A DNA stretch of 23,424 nucleotides from a virus: positions 1 through 23,424 of IMG/VR virus record IMGVR_UViG_3300009161_001533; one strand, given 5' to 3'. The position numbers and the translations under genes are program-made. Under the pieces are notes generated by a model. It searched no databases, was not told where the DNA came from, and saw only the letters and a list, made by a program, of their open reading frames with translations. Each line of letters opens with the position of its first letter. Position 1 is the stretch's first letter. This document shows, in pieces, positions 1-13,308 of this stretch.

Positions 1-1050
1 ATGATCTTCAGTTTCAATATCTTGTGCTACTGCGTTCAAATAATCCTGATTGAACGCCACTGGTGCTACCACTGGTTTGAGATCTTTGAAATGATCAAAT
101 TTATCCAAGTAAGGATATTGTTCATACATCCAACCCGGAGGATGAGGATCTTTGGGCAGTTCGTCAGCAAACAACGAACTGGTTTCAACTGTTTTACCGG
201 TGGGCTGTTCTAGTTCTGCTATCTTGCGCAGTTGTTCTATTTGTTCTTCTGACAATGGGCCATCATCGGCTTCGTAAGCAGGTTGTGATCTACGCTCACG
301 TTCCCACTTCAAACTCTCTGTGGCGGCCAACACCATCATGATGGCTAGTGGATCAAACACCACAACCAATATGATAATAACCCAACGCACAGCACGTTCT
401 AGTAGGTTGGCGTCTGGATTGTCGCCATAGACCAGGGCCGCGATGTATTTGATTGGGCCTACTTCTGCTTCTACTTTTCGTACTTCCGCCGCAATGGGCG
501 CACGTTCTTCACTAAGGGCGGTAATAGTTTTCTGTTCGGCCGCAATCTCAGATTGAAGGCGGACACGTTCTTTCTGCTGTGCTCTTCGGACTGCAACAGC
601 TTTGTCGGCACCTTTTTCATCACTGCTTCGACCCATAACCTGGTCCACAGCCTCATCCATTTGTTTAAGCGCCTTCCGGTTTGCATCAATATTGTCCTTT
701 GCTGTTTTGATCTTTTCATCATATACACTGATCTTTGCCAGGACATCACCTGATACTAGACTCTGGTCACTGTGTGCTTTTGACAGGAATCCAAAGATGC
801 CCATGCTGGTGATCACCATGAGCATGCCCACAGCAGGCACCAGATACACTTTCATCAACAATCTGCAACGGTGCCAGTATTCGTGCAACCATACTGTGAC
901 AGTGACCTTGGCTACTTCTAGGATAGAGCCCATGATAATGATAGGAACAACTGCTGATGCAAAAATAGCAGTAAGGCCCAAGATACTATACCAGGCCGCA
1001 ACCATGCTCAATGAAAGAGCGGTTAACAATGTGAAATAACTGAGGAACAT
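1..1050 (-). CDS. Membrane protein with central coiled coil (C-terminus cut by window edge)
   Basis: The frame is open from an ATG at 1050 to the left edge, giving 350 residues with no stop, so the C-terminus lies outside the window. Hydrophobic stretches at about residues 3-20, 22-47 and 66-90 suggest three N-terminal membrane segments. Residues about 100-198 are highly charged, Ala/Lys/Glu-rich and heptad-like, so probably a long coiled coil. Another membrane segment (about 222-244, containing VFDPLAIMMVLAA) follows, and then an acidic Pro-containing tail. I see no enzyme motif. This topology (membrane anchor, coil, membrane anchor) occurs in uncharacterised T4-like phage proteins. The ATG follows the stop of the 1055-1372 gene by four bases and has no clear Shine-Dalgarno, so expression may be translationally coupled. 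The gene is real by its length and coherent topology; its function is unknown. Confidence 0.85.
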   Translation of the reverse strand, partial: MFLSYFTLLTALSLSMVAAWYSILGLTAIFASAVVPIIIMGSILEVAKVTVTVWLHEYWHRCRLLMKVYLVPAVGMLMVITSMGIFGFLSKAHSDQSLVSGDVLAKISVYDEKIKTAKDNIDANRKALKQMDEAVDQVMGRSSDEKGADKAVAVRRAQQKERVRLQSEIAAEQKTITALSEERAPIAAEVRKVEAEVGPIKYIAALVYGDNPDANLLERAVRWVIIILVVVFDPLAIMMVLAATESLKWERERRSQPAYEADDGPLSEEQIEQLRKIAELEQPTGKTVETSSLFADELPKDPHPPGWMYEQYPYLDKFDHFKDLKPVVAPVAFNQDYLNAVAQDIETEDH

Positions 1051-5015: not shown

Positions 5016-5044
5016 ATTATAGCATTTTGGCAATTATTGGTCAA
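5016..5044 (-). promoter_or_regulatory. Strong early promoter (TTGACC-17-TATAAT)
   Basis: Minus-strand TTGACC (5039-5044) and TATAAT (5016-5021) are 17 bp apart. The first ten spacer bases are AATAATTGCC, nearly the same as in the promoter at 5511-5539. The predicted start is near 5009, giving a leader of about 25 nt with AAAAAGGAG before the ATG at 4984. Upstream, the sequence AGTATTACTTTTT ends five bases from the -35. Confidence 0.85.
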
Positions 5045-5049
5045 CCGCC

Positions 5050-5072
5050 AAAAAGTAATACTCAAGTATTAC
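5050..5072 (-). terminator. Intrinsic terminator after the 5069-5344 gene
   Basis: Minus-strand GTAATACT-TG-AGTATTAC (5072-5055) is a perfect 8-bp inverted repeat with a 2-base centre, followed directly by TTTTT (5054-5050). The stop codon of the 5069-5344 gene lies within the first arm. The stem is A/T-rich, so termination may be partial. It abuts the next promoter, forming a terminator-promoter cassette. Confidence 0.6.
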
Positions 5073-5344
5073 ATGCTCCAGAATGATTCTGAGCTGGGTG
5101 AGCAGAAGCAAGGTGTGTTGACATCTTCTTCAAACTTTTCACCTGTCATGATGTTGGTCTTTTCGACCATGCGGGGTTGGTAGTGTTTGGTGTCTATAAT
5201 GCTGAGATCAGCCACACTCCAACCTTCTTTGCGGCACAGACGTGTCCGTGTTGCACGGGCGGCACCAAAAGTTTTGTAAGCACGGGTAGGATGAGGACCA
5301 TCTGAATGGATCATTCCAGTGCTTCGAACAATAATGTAATACAT
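5069..5344 (-). CDS. Small early-type phage protein, 91 aa
   Basis: The ATG at 5344 follows AAAAGGAGTCCAAG, a good Shine-Dalgarno, and its own strong promoter at 5374-5402. The protein begins MYYIIVRSTGMIHSDGPHPT, contains a basic central region (AYKTFGAARATRTRLCRKEG) and a Ser/Cys-rich C-terminus (CFCSPSSESF). No domain recognised and no membrane segment. Its promoter, leader and small size suggest an early host-interaction protein, but nothing in the sequence shows a target. Confidence 0.75.
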   Translation of the reverse strand: MYYIIVRSTGMIHSDGPHPTRAYKTFGAARATRTRLCRKEGWSVADLSIIDTKHYQPRMVEKTNIMTGEKFEEDVNTPCFCSPSSESFWSM

Positions 5345-5360
5345 CTTGGACTCCTTTTTA

Positions 5361-5504
5361 CTACAATAACTCTATTATATACAAAACGGAATTTTTGGTC
5401 AACCAAAATGTGAGCACTGCAATCACCAGCAGTTCTGCTACCGTAAACTTAGTACGATAGTATGCCTGTAATACTTTGTGTTTAAATTGGTTTACCCGGT
5501 TCAT
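5361..5504 (-). CDS. Small single-TM membrane protein, 47 aa
   Basis: The ATG at 5504 opens 47 codons ending in TAG. The N-terminal half is basic (MNRVNQFKHKVLQAYYRTKF). The C-terminal half is almost wholly hydrophobic (TVAELLVIAVLTFWLTKNSV, then seven more residues), a convincing membrane segment with a positive-inside N-terminus. No Shine-Dalgarno precedes the ATG. The -10 box of the promoter at 5511-5539 ends only six bases before it, so the predicted transcription start falls on or next to the ATG and the mRNA could be leaderless. The next gene's promoter is embedded in its 3' end. It is likely an early inner-membrane peptide; function unknown. Confidence 0.55.
   Translation of the reverse strand: MNRVNQFKHKVLQAYYRTKFTVAELLVIAVLTFWLTKNSVLYIIELL
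5374..5402 (-). promoter_or_regulatory. Strong early promoter (TTGACC-17-TATAAT)
   Basis: Minus-strand TTGACC (5397-5402) and TATAAT (5374-5379) are 17 bp apart, with AAAAATTCC opening the spacer. The whole element lies inside the 3' part of the small ORF 5361-5504. Its downstream leader shares ATTGTA-NN-AAAAAGGAG-Y-CC with the leader of the promoter at 5016-5044. Confidence 0.85.
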
Positions 5505-5510
5505 GCTGTT

Positions 5511-5539
5511 ATTATAGCACTAGGGCAATTTTTGGTCAA
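5511..5539 (-). promoter_or_regulatory. Strong early promoter (TTGACC-17-TATAAT)
   Basis: Minus-strand TTGACC (5534-5539) and TATAAT (5511-5516) are 17 bp apart, and the spacer begins AAAAATTGCC. Upstream, AGTAATACTTTTT ends five bases from the -35, the same spacing as at the 5016-5044 promoter. It marks the border between the structural block on its right and the early-type block on its left. Confidence 0.85.
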
Positions 5540-5544
5540 GCAGT

Positions 5545-5561
5545 AAAAAGTATTACTTTTT
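5545..5561 (-). terminator. A/T dyad after the 5561-6409 gene, possible weak terminator
   Basis: Minus-strand AAAAAGTA-A-TACTTTTT (8-bp arms, 1-base centre) begins at the stop codon of the 5561-6409 gene. As RNA the loop must open to about six bases (AGTAA/TTACT stem), so termination would be weak. The same A/T block sits upstream of the 5016-5044 promoter and may act partly as an UP-like element. Confidence 0.4.
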
Positions 5562-6409
5562 TAGCCTATCAACGCCCGGGCTTGTGCGGGTGTGTATTCA
5601 CTGCTACTCAGCGTGGCCTGCGGCGGCACTGCATCAGGTTGTTGAGGCACTGCATTGTCAATTTTCAAGTTGACAGCATTGAGTCCAGCAGTGTTGCGAC
5701 CTTCACGTAGCGCACCCACCATGGCTTGACCATACTGGTTGGCAGTGTTGGCAATGCTTTCCAAAAATTCAGCGGCCATTCCTGTTTGTGTTTCTTGACC
5801 GTAGCCGGCAAGTGCAGGAATAAAAGCAGTGATAGGCAACTGTGCGCCGGCGGTGAGTGTGCTGTAGTTGATTGATGCCAGCGATTGAAATGTGGACTCA
5901 TTGGCACTGTGTTTGGTCATTTCTGTCCAGGCAGTGTTCAAGGTGGCAGTAGCAGTGCCCATGGCAGTGATGGCTGTGCCGATGGCAGCATCAGCGGCTG
6001 TGACCAGGGCAGCAATGGCTGCATCGTATGTGGCATATACGCCTGCGGCTGACCCTGCCGGAATAGTAATAGTGGGCGGTGCACCGTATGTTCCAGACAC
6101 AACATTTTTCATTCGAGAATAGATGTCATTGAGTGTGGTGAGTGTGCCAGCGGTGAGTTGAGCATTGATTGTGCTGATAACTGTGGACAGGTCAGTGTTG
6201 TAGGGAATGCCGGCTGCTGACCCAAAAAAGTCTGTGGTCAAAAATGTGCCATTGGGCCCTGATCCCAATGCTATGTTTGTGGCGTAATATGTGGCCACCG
6301 CAGCAGGCACAGGTGTGGTGGTGTTGGCAATCAAATCTAGGCCTTTCAAGGTGCCTAGTTTTCTACTGTAGACTGCGGTCTCCGCGGCTGTTTGTGCTAG
6401 TGTGGTCAT
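5561..6409 (-). CDS. Ala/Thr-rich virion structural-type protein, 282 aa
   Basis: The ATG at 6409 overlaps the upstream TGA (ATGA). The protein is very rich in Ala, Thr and Gly with few charges and long low-complexity helical runs (AAIAALVTAADAAIGTAITA), then an Asn/Gln-rich C-terminal part (ANQYGQAMVGALREGRNTAG) and a Pro-rich tail. This composition is typical of tail or baseplate-associated proteins in large marine T4-like phages. It sits at the end of the PAAR operon, so I infer a role near the baseplate or spike. No enzyme motif or signal peptide was seen. The exact part is not recognised. Confidence 0.75.
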   Translation of the reverse strand: MTTLAQTAAETAVYSRKLGTLKGLDLIANTTTPVPAAVATYYATNIALGSGPNGTFLTTDFFGSAAGIPYNTDLSTVISTINAQLTAGTLTTLNDIYSRMKNVVSGTYGAPPTITIPAGSAAGVYATYDAAIAALVTAADAAIGTAITAMGTATATLNTAWTEMTKHSANESTFQSLASINYSTLTAGAQLPITAFIPALAGYGQETQTGMAAEFLESIANTANQYGQAMVGALREGRNTAGLNAVNLKIDNAVPQQPDAVPPQATLSSSEYTPAQARALIG

Positions 6410-10990: not shown

Positions 10991-13308
10991 AATTTGCAAC
11001 TTTCGCAGTCTTCTATATCATCAAAGTCTATGACTTCTAGTGGTGCTTCTTCTTTAGCGGCTTTGGCACCTTGTTTGTTGATTAAACTGTAATAGAATGT
11101 CTTGATACCCCAGTGATGTGCTTGCATTAGATTTTTAGCAATCAAGGTAGTGGGTACTTTGCGATCTGGCCAGTGTGCTGGATTGTAGAATGTGTTGGTT
11201 GAGATTGACTGATCAATATATGCTGCCAACACAGCGGCTGTTTTTAAATAACCAACGCAATCCTGTTGTTGCCACATCAGTTGATATTTGTTTTTGAGTC
11301 TGTGATACTCGGGCACCACTTGTGTCAAACTACCTGCTTTACTTTCTTTTACACTGATCAAGCTCATGGGCATTTCAATGCCATTGGTTGAATTGATAAC
11401 AACACTGCTAGACTCTACAGGTGCCACTGCCATCAAGGTGGCGTTTCGAACTCCGTATGCTTGCATGTTGCCACGCAGGGTATTCCAGTCCAACGCAGGA
11501 TCAGGTGTGAAGTCTGTCAATTCATTAACACCTTTGGCTCTGCGCTCCCACGGAAACTCGCCACGTCCATAACGTGTCTTGTCTGAGTCCTTGCAACGGC
11601 CACGTTCTTTGGCCAGTTCCACTGTGGCTTCGGTCAAGTAGTAGGCTTGGTGTTCCATCCAGCTTTTAACTTCTGCCAGTGCATCTTTCTCACCATACTC
11701 AAGTCCACGTTTGGCGTGCCAATAAGCCAAGTTTGTAATACCAATGCCCAGGGGCTGAATCTCATCATTGCTGAGTTGACTTTGTATACTCAAGAAGTCT
11801 TGATAGTCAAGTATGTTACACAGGCTGCGTTGTAGAATACGACAGGCTCTACGCATGTCTTCAGGATGTCTAAACGCACCCCAATTGATTGATCCCAATG
11901 TACACAATGCAATACGACCTTCGGCATCATCAAGACGTTTAAATGGTTTAGTAGGCAACAAGATTTCACAGCAAAGATTGCTTTGATAGATTGTGTGATA
12001 CTCAGGATCAAATGGTCCTTGGTCCATCACATTGTCAATGAACACTAGATAGATACGTCCAGTATCGGTTCGTTCCTTGAGAATACCACTTTTGAAAACT
12101 TCCTCCGCAGCCATCGTTTTCTTACGGAGGCTGGGCGACTTTTCATATTTGACATAAAGTTCTTCAAACAAAGCGGTGTTTTGATAAAATGCTTCATAAA
12201 GGTCTGGTACTTGGTTGGGGTCAAAGAATGTTATATTTTCTTTGTTTTTAAATCTGCGCCAGAAAAACGCAGATAGCACAACGCCGTAGTCCATGTGTCG
12301 CACTCGAGTCTCTTCTGTGCCTTGATTATTTTTAAGCACAATAAGATCATCGAACTGATGGTGCCATATGGGATAGAACACAGTGGCTGATGCATTGCGT
12401 ATGCCGCCTTGTGAACATGAACGTAGATCACCAAACCATTTCTTTAAGAAAGGAATCATACCTGTATGCATGATCTCGCCACCACGAATGGGTGAACCTA
12501 GTGGGCGCAGACGTCCAATTTCTAAACCAATACCAGCACGTTTGCTGGCATACTTGGCCATCATTTCACCGCTGGCGAAAATACTGTCCAAATCATCATC
12601 CGACCTAATAAGAACGCAACTACTAAACTGTTTAGTAGGAGTTCCAAGCCCTGCCAACACAGGCGTGGCCAACGTAAATAATCCGTCACTTGCGGCATTG
12701 TAGTATTCCTTTATATAACGCATTCTAGCCGTGTTAGGCTCTTCCTTGTGGAACACAGTGGCCGCTGCCACCATATATCTCACTTGAGGAGTTTCATATG
12801 TTTGTCCTGTGCTACGATTTTTTACTAGATATTTCTCGATCAACTGTTCTACTGCGGCATAACTGTATGACTCATCTTTGGCATGATCAATCATGTCATT
12901 CATCTTGTTCCAGTCATCTTCTGAATACCACTCCAACAGTTCAGGAGTGTATAAACCAGTGGCCACGTTGGTCTTCACAATCTCATACAAGTGGGGAGGA
13001 TCATAGGAACCGTAGACATCTTTGCGTAGCATGCTGAGTCGCTGTTTGCCTGCCACATACTGATAATTGGTGTGCCCCACATCCGGGTTAGACTCTACAT
13101 CAATTAGATCCACAATAGCACGTAGAGTAATGCCGTCAATTTCTTTGGTGGTAATACCATCGTAAAAGTGTAATTGTGCTTTGATCTCCACCATGCTCTG
13201 GCTAACGTCTGCTATGCCTGCACATACTTTGGCGATTTGGGTTTGCCATTTTTCCAAGGCGAGCGATTCTCTACGCCCACTGCGCTTTACAACTGTAATG
13301 CTTTTCAT
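10987..13308 (-). CDS. nrdA: Class Ia ribonucleotide reductase, alpha (R1) subunit
   Basis: The 773-aa catalytic subunit reduces ribonucleoside diphosphates. It has an N-terminal ATP-cone (about 1-95, VVKRSGRRESLALEKWQ), redox Cys231 (FSSCVLI) with Cys469 (ALCTLGSINWG), the active site N444-x-C446-x-E448 in NLCCEILLPTKPF, radical-transfer Tyr739/Tyr740 (KTFYYS), and a C-terminal shuttle pair CESC (768-771). The length is close to E. coli NrdA (761), so there is no intein. AGGATAAAATG gives the start. It overlaps nrdB by ATGA, and with the glutaredoxin it forms a complete dNTP-supply set. Confidence 0.97.
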   Translation of the reverse strand: MKSITVVKRSGRRESLALEKWQTQIAKVCAGIADVSQSMVEIKAQLHFYDGITTKEIDGITLRAIVDLIDVESNPDVGHTNYQYVAGKQRLSMLRKDVYGSYDPPHLYEIVKTNVATGLYTPELLEWYSEDDWNKMNDMIDHAKDESYSYAAVEQLIEKYLVKNRSTGQTYETPQVRYMVAAATVFHKEEPNTARMRYIKEYYNAASDGLFTLATPVLAGLGTPTKQFSSCVLIRSDDDLDSIFASGEMMAKYASKRAGIGLEIGRLRPLGSPIRGGEIMHTGMIPFLKKWFGDLRSCSQGGIRNASATVFYPIWHHQFDDLIVLKNNQGTEETRVRHMDYGVVLSAFFWRRFKNKENITFFDPNQVPDLYEAFYQNTALFEELYVKYEKSPSLRKKTMAAEEVFKSGILKERTDTGRIYLVFIDNVMDQGPFDPEYHTIYQSNLCCEILLPTKPFKRLDDAEGRIALCTLGSINWGAFRHPEDMRRACRILQRSLCNILDYQDFLSIQSQLSNDEIQPLGIGITNLAYWHAKRGLEYGEKDALAEVKSWMEHQAYYLTEATVELAKERGRCKDSDKTRYGRGEFPWERRAKGVNELTDFTPDPALDWNTLRGNMQAYGVRNATLMAVAPVESSSVVINSTNGIEMPMSLISVKESKAGSLTQVVPEYHRLKNKYQLMWQQQDCVGYLKTAAVLAAYIDQSISTNTFYNPAHWPDRKVPTTLIAKNLMQAHHWGIKTFYYSLINKQGAKAAKEEAPLEVIDFDDIEDCESCKL

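Follow-up and report, generated by a model that had tools for sequence, protein, structure and literature searches.

A 47-codon open reading frame (ORF) on the minus strand of a 23.4-kb IMG/VR virus record, hereafter the window, is probably expressed from a leaderless mRNA. Judging from sequence comparisons, we think it probable that promoter 1, directly ahead of this ORF, yields a leaderless mRNA, that the product is a small peptide, that the ORF and its promoters form a cassette, and that the ORF is one case of a leaderless class of genes specific to certain families. The leaderless start, proposed in an earlier note on this DNA, is well supported by the sequence: the transcription start predicted from a CAT signature falls on the start codon, the spacing between -10 and ATG was kept in 18 of 18 contigs, and the same layout was found in unrelated gene families.

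Layout of the locus

Other genes in the window encode the large subunit of ribonucleotide reductase, an ATP-dependent DNA ligase and a tail-fibre-like protein. The features of the locus are as follows.

5542 to 5557, minus strand: weak stem-loop with 5 bp (AGTAA...TTACT) immediately ahead of promoter 1, a variant of the GTAnTAC box
5511 to 5539, minus strand: promoter 1, with -35 TTGACC (5539-5534), a 17-nt spacer and -10 TATAAT (5516-5511)
5505 to 5510, minus strand: AACAGC between the -10 and the ATG; the predicted +1, seventh base after the -10, coincides with the A of the start codon
5361 to 5504, minus strand: 47-codon ORF without Shine-Dalgarno (SD) sequence, predicted to be leaderless (ATG 5504-5502, TAG 5363-5361)
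5374 to 5402, minus strand: promoter 2, in the 3' end of the ORF where residues 35-44 are encoded, upstream of the SD-led 91-aa gene
5351 to 5356, minus strand: AAGGAG, the SD sequence of the 91-aa gene, right behind the stop of the ORF
5069 to 5344, minus strand: SD-led 91-aa gene, the partner that follows the ORF here and in most relatives
5016 to 5044, minus strand: promoter 3, of the same type, ahead of the SD-led 93-aa gene (4984-4703); it serves as the leadered comparison

Direct reading of the sequence bore out that the -10 of promoter 1 ends six bases ahead of the ATG and that the ORF lacks an SD sequence; it also placed the feature on the minus strand, which the earlier note had left unsaid. 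Both the 91-aa and the 93-aa gene have AAGGAG leaders. The promoter pattern occurs in 3 copies in the window and in 0 of 100 shuffles. A relaxed scan of the window (promoter, 5-7 nt, ATG and at least 25 codons) returned the site of the 47-codon ORF and a much poorer match at 13214 on the plus strand. By their sequence, the promoters fit a host sigma-70-like type compatible with early expression. The 91-aa gene had no match in Pfam or PHROGs.

The shortness of the ORF had been held responsible for its being missed by the usual gene callers. Their usual minimum ORF length lies below 47 codons, however, and the missing ribosome-binding site (RBS) is the likelier reason for overlooking it.

Leaderless starts in related phages

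Loci fetched by the promoter pattern alone provided a first set of 299 distinct TTGAC-17..19-TATAAT contexts from at least 120 contig stretches. We counted the offset of ATG codons in nucleotides after the -10. Among the matches listed (n = 299), an ATG occurred 7 times at offset 5, 58 times at offset 6 and 0 times at offset 7, with a second main peak near offset 30, where the SD-led starts lie, and a third, of 30 ATGs, at offset 0, which is still within the promoter. TATAAT controls without a -35 had an ATG at offset 6 in only 14 of 542 cases. An ATG at offset 0 would fall upstream of +1 and is therefore probably no start; these 30 of the 299 promoters, among the matches listed, come from loci L084-L203 and mostly have it in TATAATATGG.

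The trimer at +1 was strongly associated with the presence of a downstream ATG preceded by an SD sequence (SD-ATG). Among the matches listed, 51 of the 58 promoters with ATG at +1 had no downstream SD-ATG, and 44 of these 51 opened a frame of at least 40 codons; ATA at +1, by contrast, was followed by an SD-ATG in 131 of 134 cases (Fisher p = 5e-35 for ATG versus ATA, treating related phages as independent), and the remaining trimers at offset 6 in 68 of 107. The 51 ATG promoters without SD were spread over 40 loci, and the 46 leaderless candidates (offsets 5-7, ORF of at least 30 codons) fell into 17 sequence clusters of up to 22 members each, again among the matches listed. A replicate set consisted of promoters around the loci of the 91-aa gene; removal of those in the first set and those adjacent to the 91-aa gene reduced it from 136 to 76. 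In this set, an SD sequence was lacking in 17 of 18 promoters with ATG versus 0 of 32 with ATA.

Because ATG differs by one base from the usual ATA at +1, a few of the ATGs at this position will be accidental, and 7 of the 58 promoters with ATG at +1, among the matches listed, do have a downstream SD-ATG. Mere drift from the ATA consensus was nevertheless rejected as the origin of the ATGs at +1, both by the largely exclusive occurrence of ATG and SD-ATG and by the promoter-blind layout described below (80 of 80 loci, the best 80 of 127, and 45 of 47 loci).

The position of +1 can be placed without using the leaderless genes. CAT is the usual start-site signature of E. coli, and in the SD-led promoters it was the commonest trimer at offsets 5-7 (98 of 199 among the matches listed of the first set; 29 of 44 in the replicate set), which puts +1 at offset 6. 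This CAT-predicted +1 coincides with the A of the ATG of the 47-codon ORF; from the -10 spacing and the CAT signature we infer the exact +1 of promoter 1. No-SD ORFs of at least 40 codons at offset 6 began with ATG in 44 cases (among the matches listed) and in 13 cases in the respective sets, and with GTG or TTG in 0; the exceptions were two ATA readings in the first promoter set, among the matches listed. A leaderless mRNA is expected to need an AUG start in E. coli, according to the summary in PMC9031893.

For a promoter-blind test, we fetched relatives of two leaderless families by their protein sequence only. Every one of the 80 GIY-YIG-like loci (the best 80 of 127 relatives) proved to be leaderless, as did 45 of 47 loci of the DUF6552-like family, where the exceptions L390 and L391 (69% identity) lack such a promoter. 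TTGA at a 17-nt spacing was found in 79 of 80 (best 80 of 127) and 44 of 47 loci, respectively, and none of the leaderless contexts of either family had an SD sequence near the start. Of 38 GIY-YIG-like copies, 32 came from loci not fetched with an ATG-containing pattern, and all were leaderless. In two neighbouring families that served as controls, every context had an SD leader (56 of 56 and 48 of 48). The GGACT-like genes were mixed, with 4 of 14 contexts leaderless. A gamma-glutamyl-cyclotransferase-like protein (43 records in phages) also occupies a leaderless position; its domain starts at residue 3, so that the leaderless ATG must be near the true start. These comparisons make it probable that leaderless expression is a habit of particular gene families in these phages, and that the 47-codon ORF is a member of this group.

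The names GIY-YIG and DUF6552 are used as labels of convenience, because the GIY-YIG-like protein and one DUF6552-like protein score below the curated cut-off of Pfam. A search of phages found no match to the GIY-YIG-like protein, and the DUF6552-like match in Pelagibacter phage Mosig overlaps the upstream gene, so that it does not look leaderless. Sinorhizobium phage Phosso and Stenotrophomonas phage DLP_6 gave only partial matches to the 91-aa gene. The nearest ribonucleotide reductases of isolated phages are from Xanthomonas and Stenotrophomonas phages, at no more than 59% identity, a possible hint at the host. The source waters may be freshwater. One further candidate, the 453-aa gene of L100, is doubtful as a leaderless gene: an SD sequence with GTG lies a few codons into it, and 8 of 10 contexts of its family are SD-led.

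Several other genes were seen at this type of promoter. A putative 165-aa protein beginning MNIYLDMDD, phosphatase-like by eye, is leaderless after TATAATACAGC in L237, L238 and L246, where TTGAC is not at its usual place. Leaderless ORFs of 16-19 codons (MNSKKQQDQ...), possibly peptides or leader ORFs, follow the same promoter type in L243, L245, L248, L249, L251 and L257. This promoter type also lies directly ahead of putative tRNA genes in L152 (minus strand, 8513) and L191 (plus strand, 7533).

Conservation of the ORF and its product

A profile search found the 47-codon ORF in 18 viral contigs at 66-100% identity, with 15 distinct nucleotide sequences among the copies. A search with a 20-mer from the 3' end of the cassette, blind to the reading frame, likewise retrieved 18 stretches, in all of which the ORF was intact. 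All 18 copies start with ATG; the search pattern for the 5' end contained this ATG and that for the 3' end did not. Between the -10 and the ATG lay 6 nt in 14 of the contigs and 5 nt in the remaining 4. Promoter 1 had a 17-nt spacer in 18 of 18 contigs, with TATAAT as its -10 in 16 and TACAAT in 2, and promoter 2 was at the same place in all 18. A nine-way alignment had 0 indels within the ORF and one-base indels on either side of it. The check for frameshifts in close relatives that the earlier note had suggested was run, and it found 0 in the 18 contigs.

Selection on the ORF appears weak, yet in the right direction. The Nei-Gojobori dN/dS over codons 1-33 was 0.41, the two alternative frames gave 0.51 and 1.17, and 17 of 49 distinct changes were synonymous versus 14.6 expected (p = 0.23). 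The chance probability of seeing no stops in the ORF copies was 0.17. Changes in codons 2-33 were conservative by BLOSUM scores (p = 0.03), and a codon model with free omega fitted better than omega 1 for codons 1-33 (p = 0.04); the p value was 0.07 for the whole ORF, the 3' third of which is constrained by promoter 2. With a selection p of about 0.04, the predicted ORF is likely to be translated.

The product had been described as basic, then hydrophobic, and as a credible membrane peptide. The basic part stood, with 5 K/R in residues 1-20; the hydrophobic part contains the break TKNS, and promoter 2 (5402-5374) encodes the final third of it. The best 19-residue Kyte-Doolittle mean, with TKNS inside, was 1.79, close to the 90th percentile of 1.75 among 5085 ATG ORFs of 40-55 codons from related loci. 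All 15 variants have a basic N-terminus and are hydrophobic beyond residue 22, with a best 19-residue hydropathy of 1.79-2.39, and AlphaFold2 predicted a single helix over residues 2-46 (mean pLDDT 82.7). A membrane-associated product is plausible but borderline from these predictions, and a clean transmembrane span would be putative. We found no match for the 47-aa protein in Pfam, PHROGs or a viral fold library, none by tblastn against phages, and no near DNA match in phages; a profile search of genome_contigs returned 266 pattern matches, none of them a relative. Hence, these searches (Pfam, PHROGs, phage tblastn and fold search) yielded no relative of known function, and the immediate effect on the host envelope that the earlier note imagined is speculative.

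The unit of promoter, ORF and promoter precedes three different genes in the 18 contigs: the next gene belongs to the 91-aa family in 13 of them, to a 90-aa family (MTALVEY) in 4 and to the 93-aa family in 1. From these three downstream genes only, we infer recombination at the promoters. The cassette would be dispensable, because only 11 of the best 80 of 154 loci with a relative of the 91-aa gene carry it.

Upstream of the -35, GTAnTAC occurred in 79 of 306 40-mers among the matches listed versus 3.3 expected after shuffling, often in pairs (loci L084-L203). The window has such regions at 5045-5078 and 5540-5575. The boxes may act as an operator or form a short stem that terminates transcription. 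The 5-bp stem upstream of promoter 1 was no better than shuffles (z = -0.34); the stem before promoter 3 has 7 bp and a U run (z = -1.6).

Proposed mechanism, alternatives and known systems

In the mechanism that we propose, promoter 1 would be a strong host-type (sigma-70-like) promoter whose transcript starts at the A of the ATG. An mRNA beginning with 5'-AUG would then undergo leaderless translation, by a 70S ribosome or by a 30S subunit with initiator tRNA, without an SD sequence. The product would be a small, basic-then-hydrophobic helical peptide, probably associated with the membrane. Transcription may continue into the next gene, which has its own promoter in the 3' end of the ORF and its own SD sequence. 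The promoter-ORF-promoter unit would be a cassette put ahead of various genes, and one case of a gene-family-specific leaderless class.

One alternative is that conservation serves the two promoters, about 137 bp apart, and that the intervening ORF is a by-product. The ORF and promoter 2 do overlap, all 18 contigs retain the two promoters, and the synonymous excess is by itself not significant; still, the copies carry no stop or indel despite the one-base indels on either side, the changes are conservative (BLOSUM p = 0.03, codons 2-33), free omega beats 1 (p = 0.04), and real protein families occupy the same position elsewhere, all of which makes this reading unlikely. An inert peptide whose leaderless translation tunes the downstream gene, as in a regulatory upstream ORF, would suit a stop that ends 5 nt ahead of the next SD sequence, and bacterial leaderless small ORFs controlling downstream genes have been described, as outlined in PMC9031893. 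This we regard as very unlikely, as the promoter of the downstream gene itself sits past most of the ORF, three unrelated genes follow the cassette, and the amino-acid changes are conservative. Read-through RNA may also exist, since the upstream gene ends nearby, and the ORF could be read from such a leadered mRNA by canonical or scanning initiation, or not be translated at all. The ATG has no SD, however, and the -10-ATG spacing is held at 5-6 nt in every copy, as it is in unrelated leaderless families. A leadered mRNA would not need such a fixed spacing, and this reading is highly improbable.

Beyond the leaderless mRNA of the 47-codon ORF, one promoter type might support two translation classes, in which the first trimer decides between ATA with an SD leader and ATG at +1, and the class is a selected family trait. 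We put this forward tentatively, as a somewhat doubtful extension. If true, the two-class design would let a phage shift its output as the state of initiation factors and ribosomes changes during infection, and the 47-aa gene would share a leaderless set with the genes of GIY-YIG-like proteins and of small membrane proteins.

Gene families that appear committed to leaderless starts, beside SD-led neighbours with the same promoter type, offer a ready-made matched comparison of the conditions under which, and the reasons why, leaderless initiation is of advantage in infection. Annotation may overlook such genes when they are short or lack an RBS, or may misplace their starts, which are predictable from the -10 spacing.

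Leaderless phage mRNAs are already known, and it looks as if the mixed layout is new: in titles and the opening parts of abstracts, we found no plain description of a mixed leaderless and SD-led class in such phages. In the same literature, leaderless phage translation is so far represented by the repressor genes of lambda and PY54 and by a single Thermus phage. The cassette resembles the PeSL cassettes of T4-like phages, which PMC4503421 mentions as an early promoter and stem-loop that act as mobile gene-shuffling units, in that one unit stands ahead of different genes (13, 4 and 1 of 18 contigs). It differs in that the stem-loop is weak and, before promoter 1, no better than shuffles. Thermus phage phiYS40 is likewise a phage that uses leaderless mRNA widely, in its middle and late transcripts, with a rise in IF2 and a fall in IF3 put forward as the mechanism (review PMC3594737). 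Those are middle and late genes in a host phylum rich in leaderless mRNA, whereas the promoters described here are host-type and also serve SD-led genes. In Deinococcus-Thermus, a -10 a few bases ahead of the start codon gives leaderless mRNA, as summarised in PMC12340547; there the motif is TANNNT and a -35 is unneeded, in contrast to the full TTGACC-17-TATAAT promoters in phages. The cI gene of lambda and the cI and cro genes of the telomere phage PY54, the latter demonstrated by RACE (PMC4488713), share with our genes an mRNA that starts at the AUG. They are single repressor genes of temperate phages, whereas here many unrelated families of environmental phages are involved. Moreover, unlike in lambda and PY54, two of these families are nearly always leaderless beside SD-led genes with the same promoter type.
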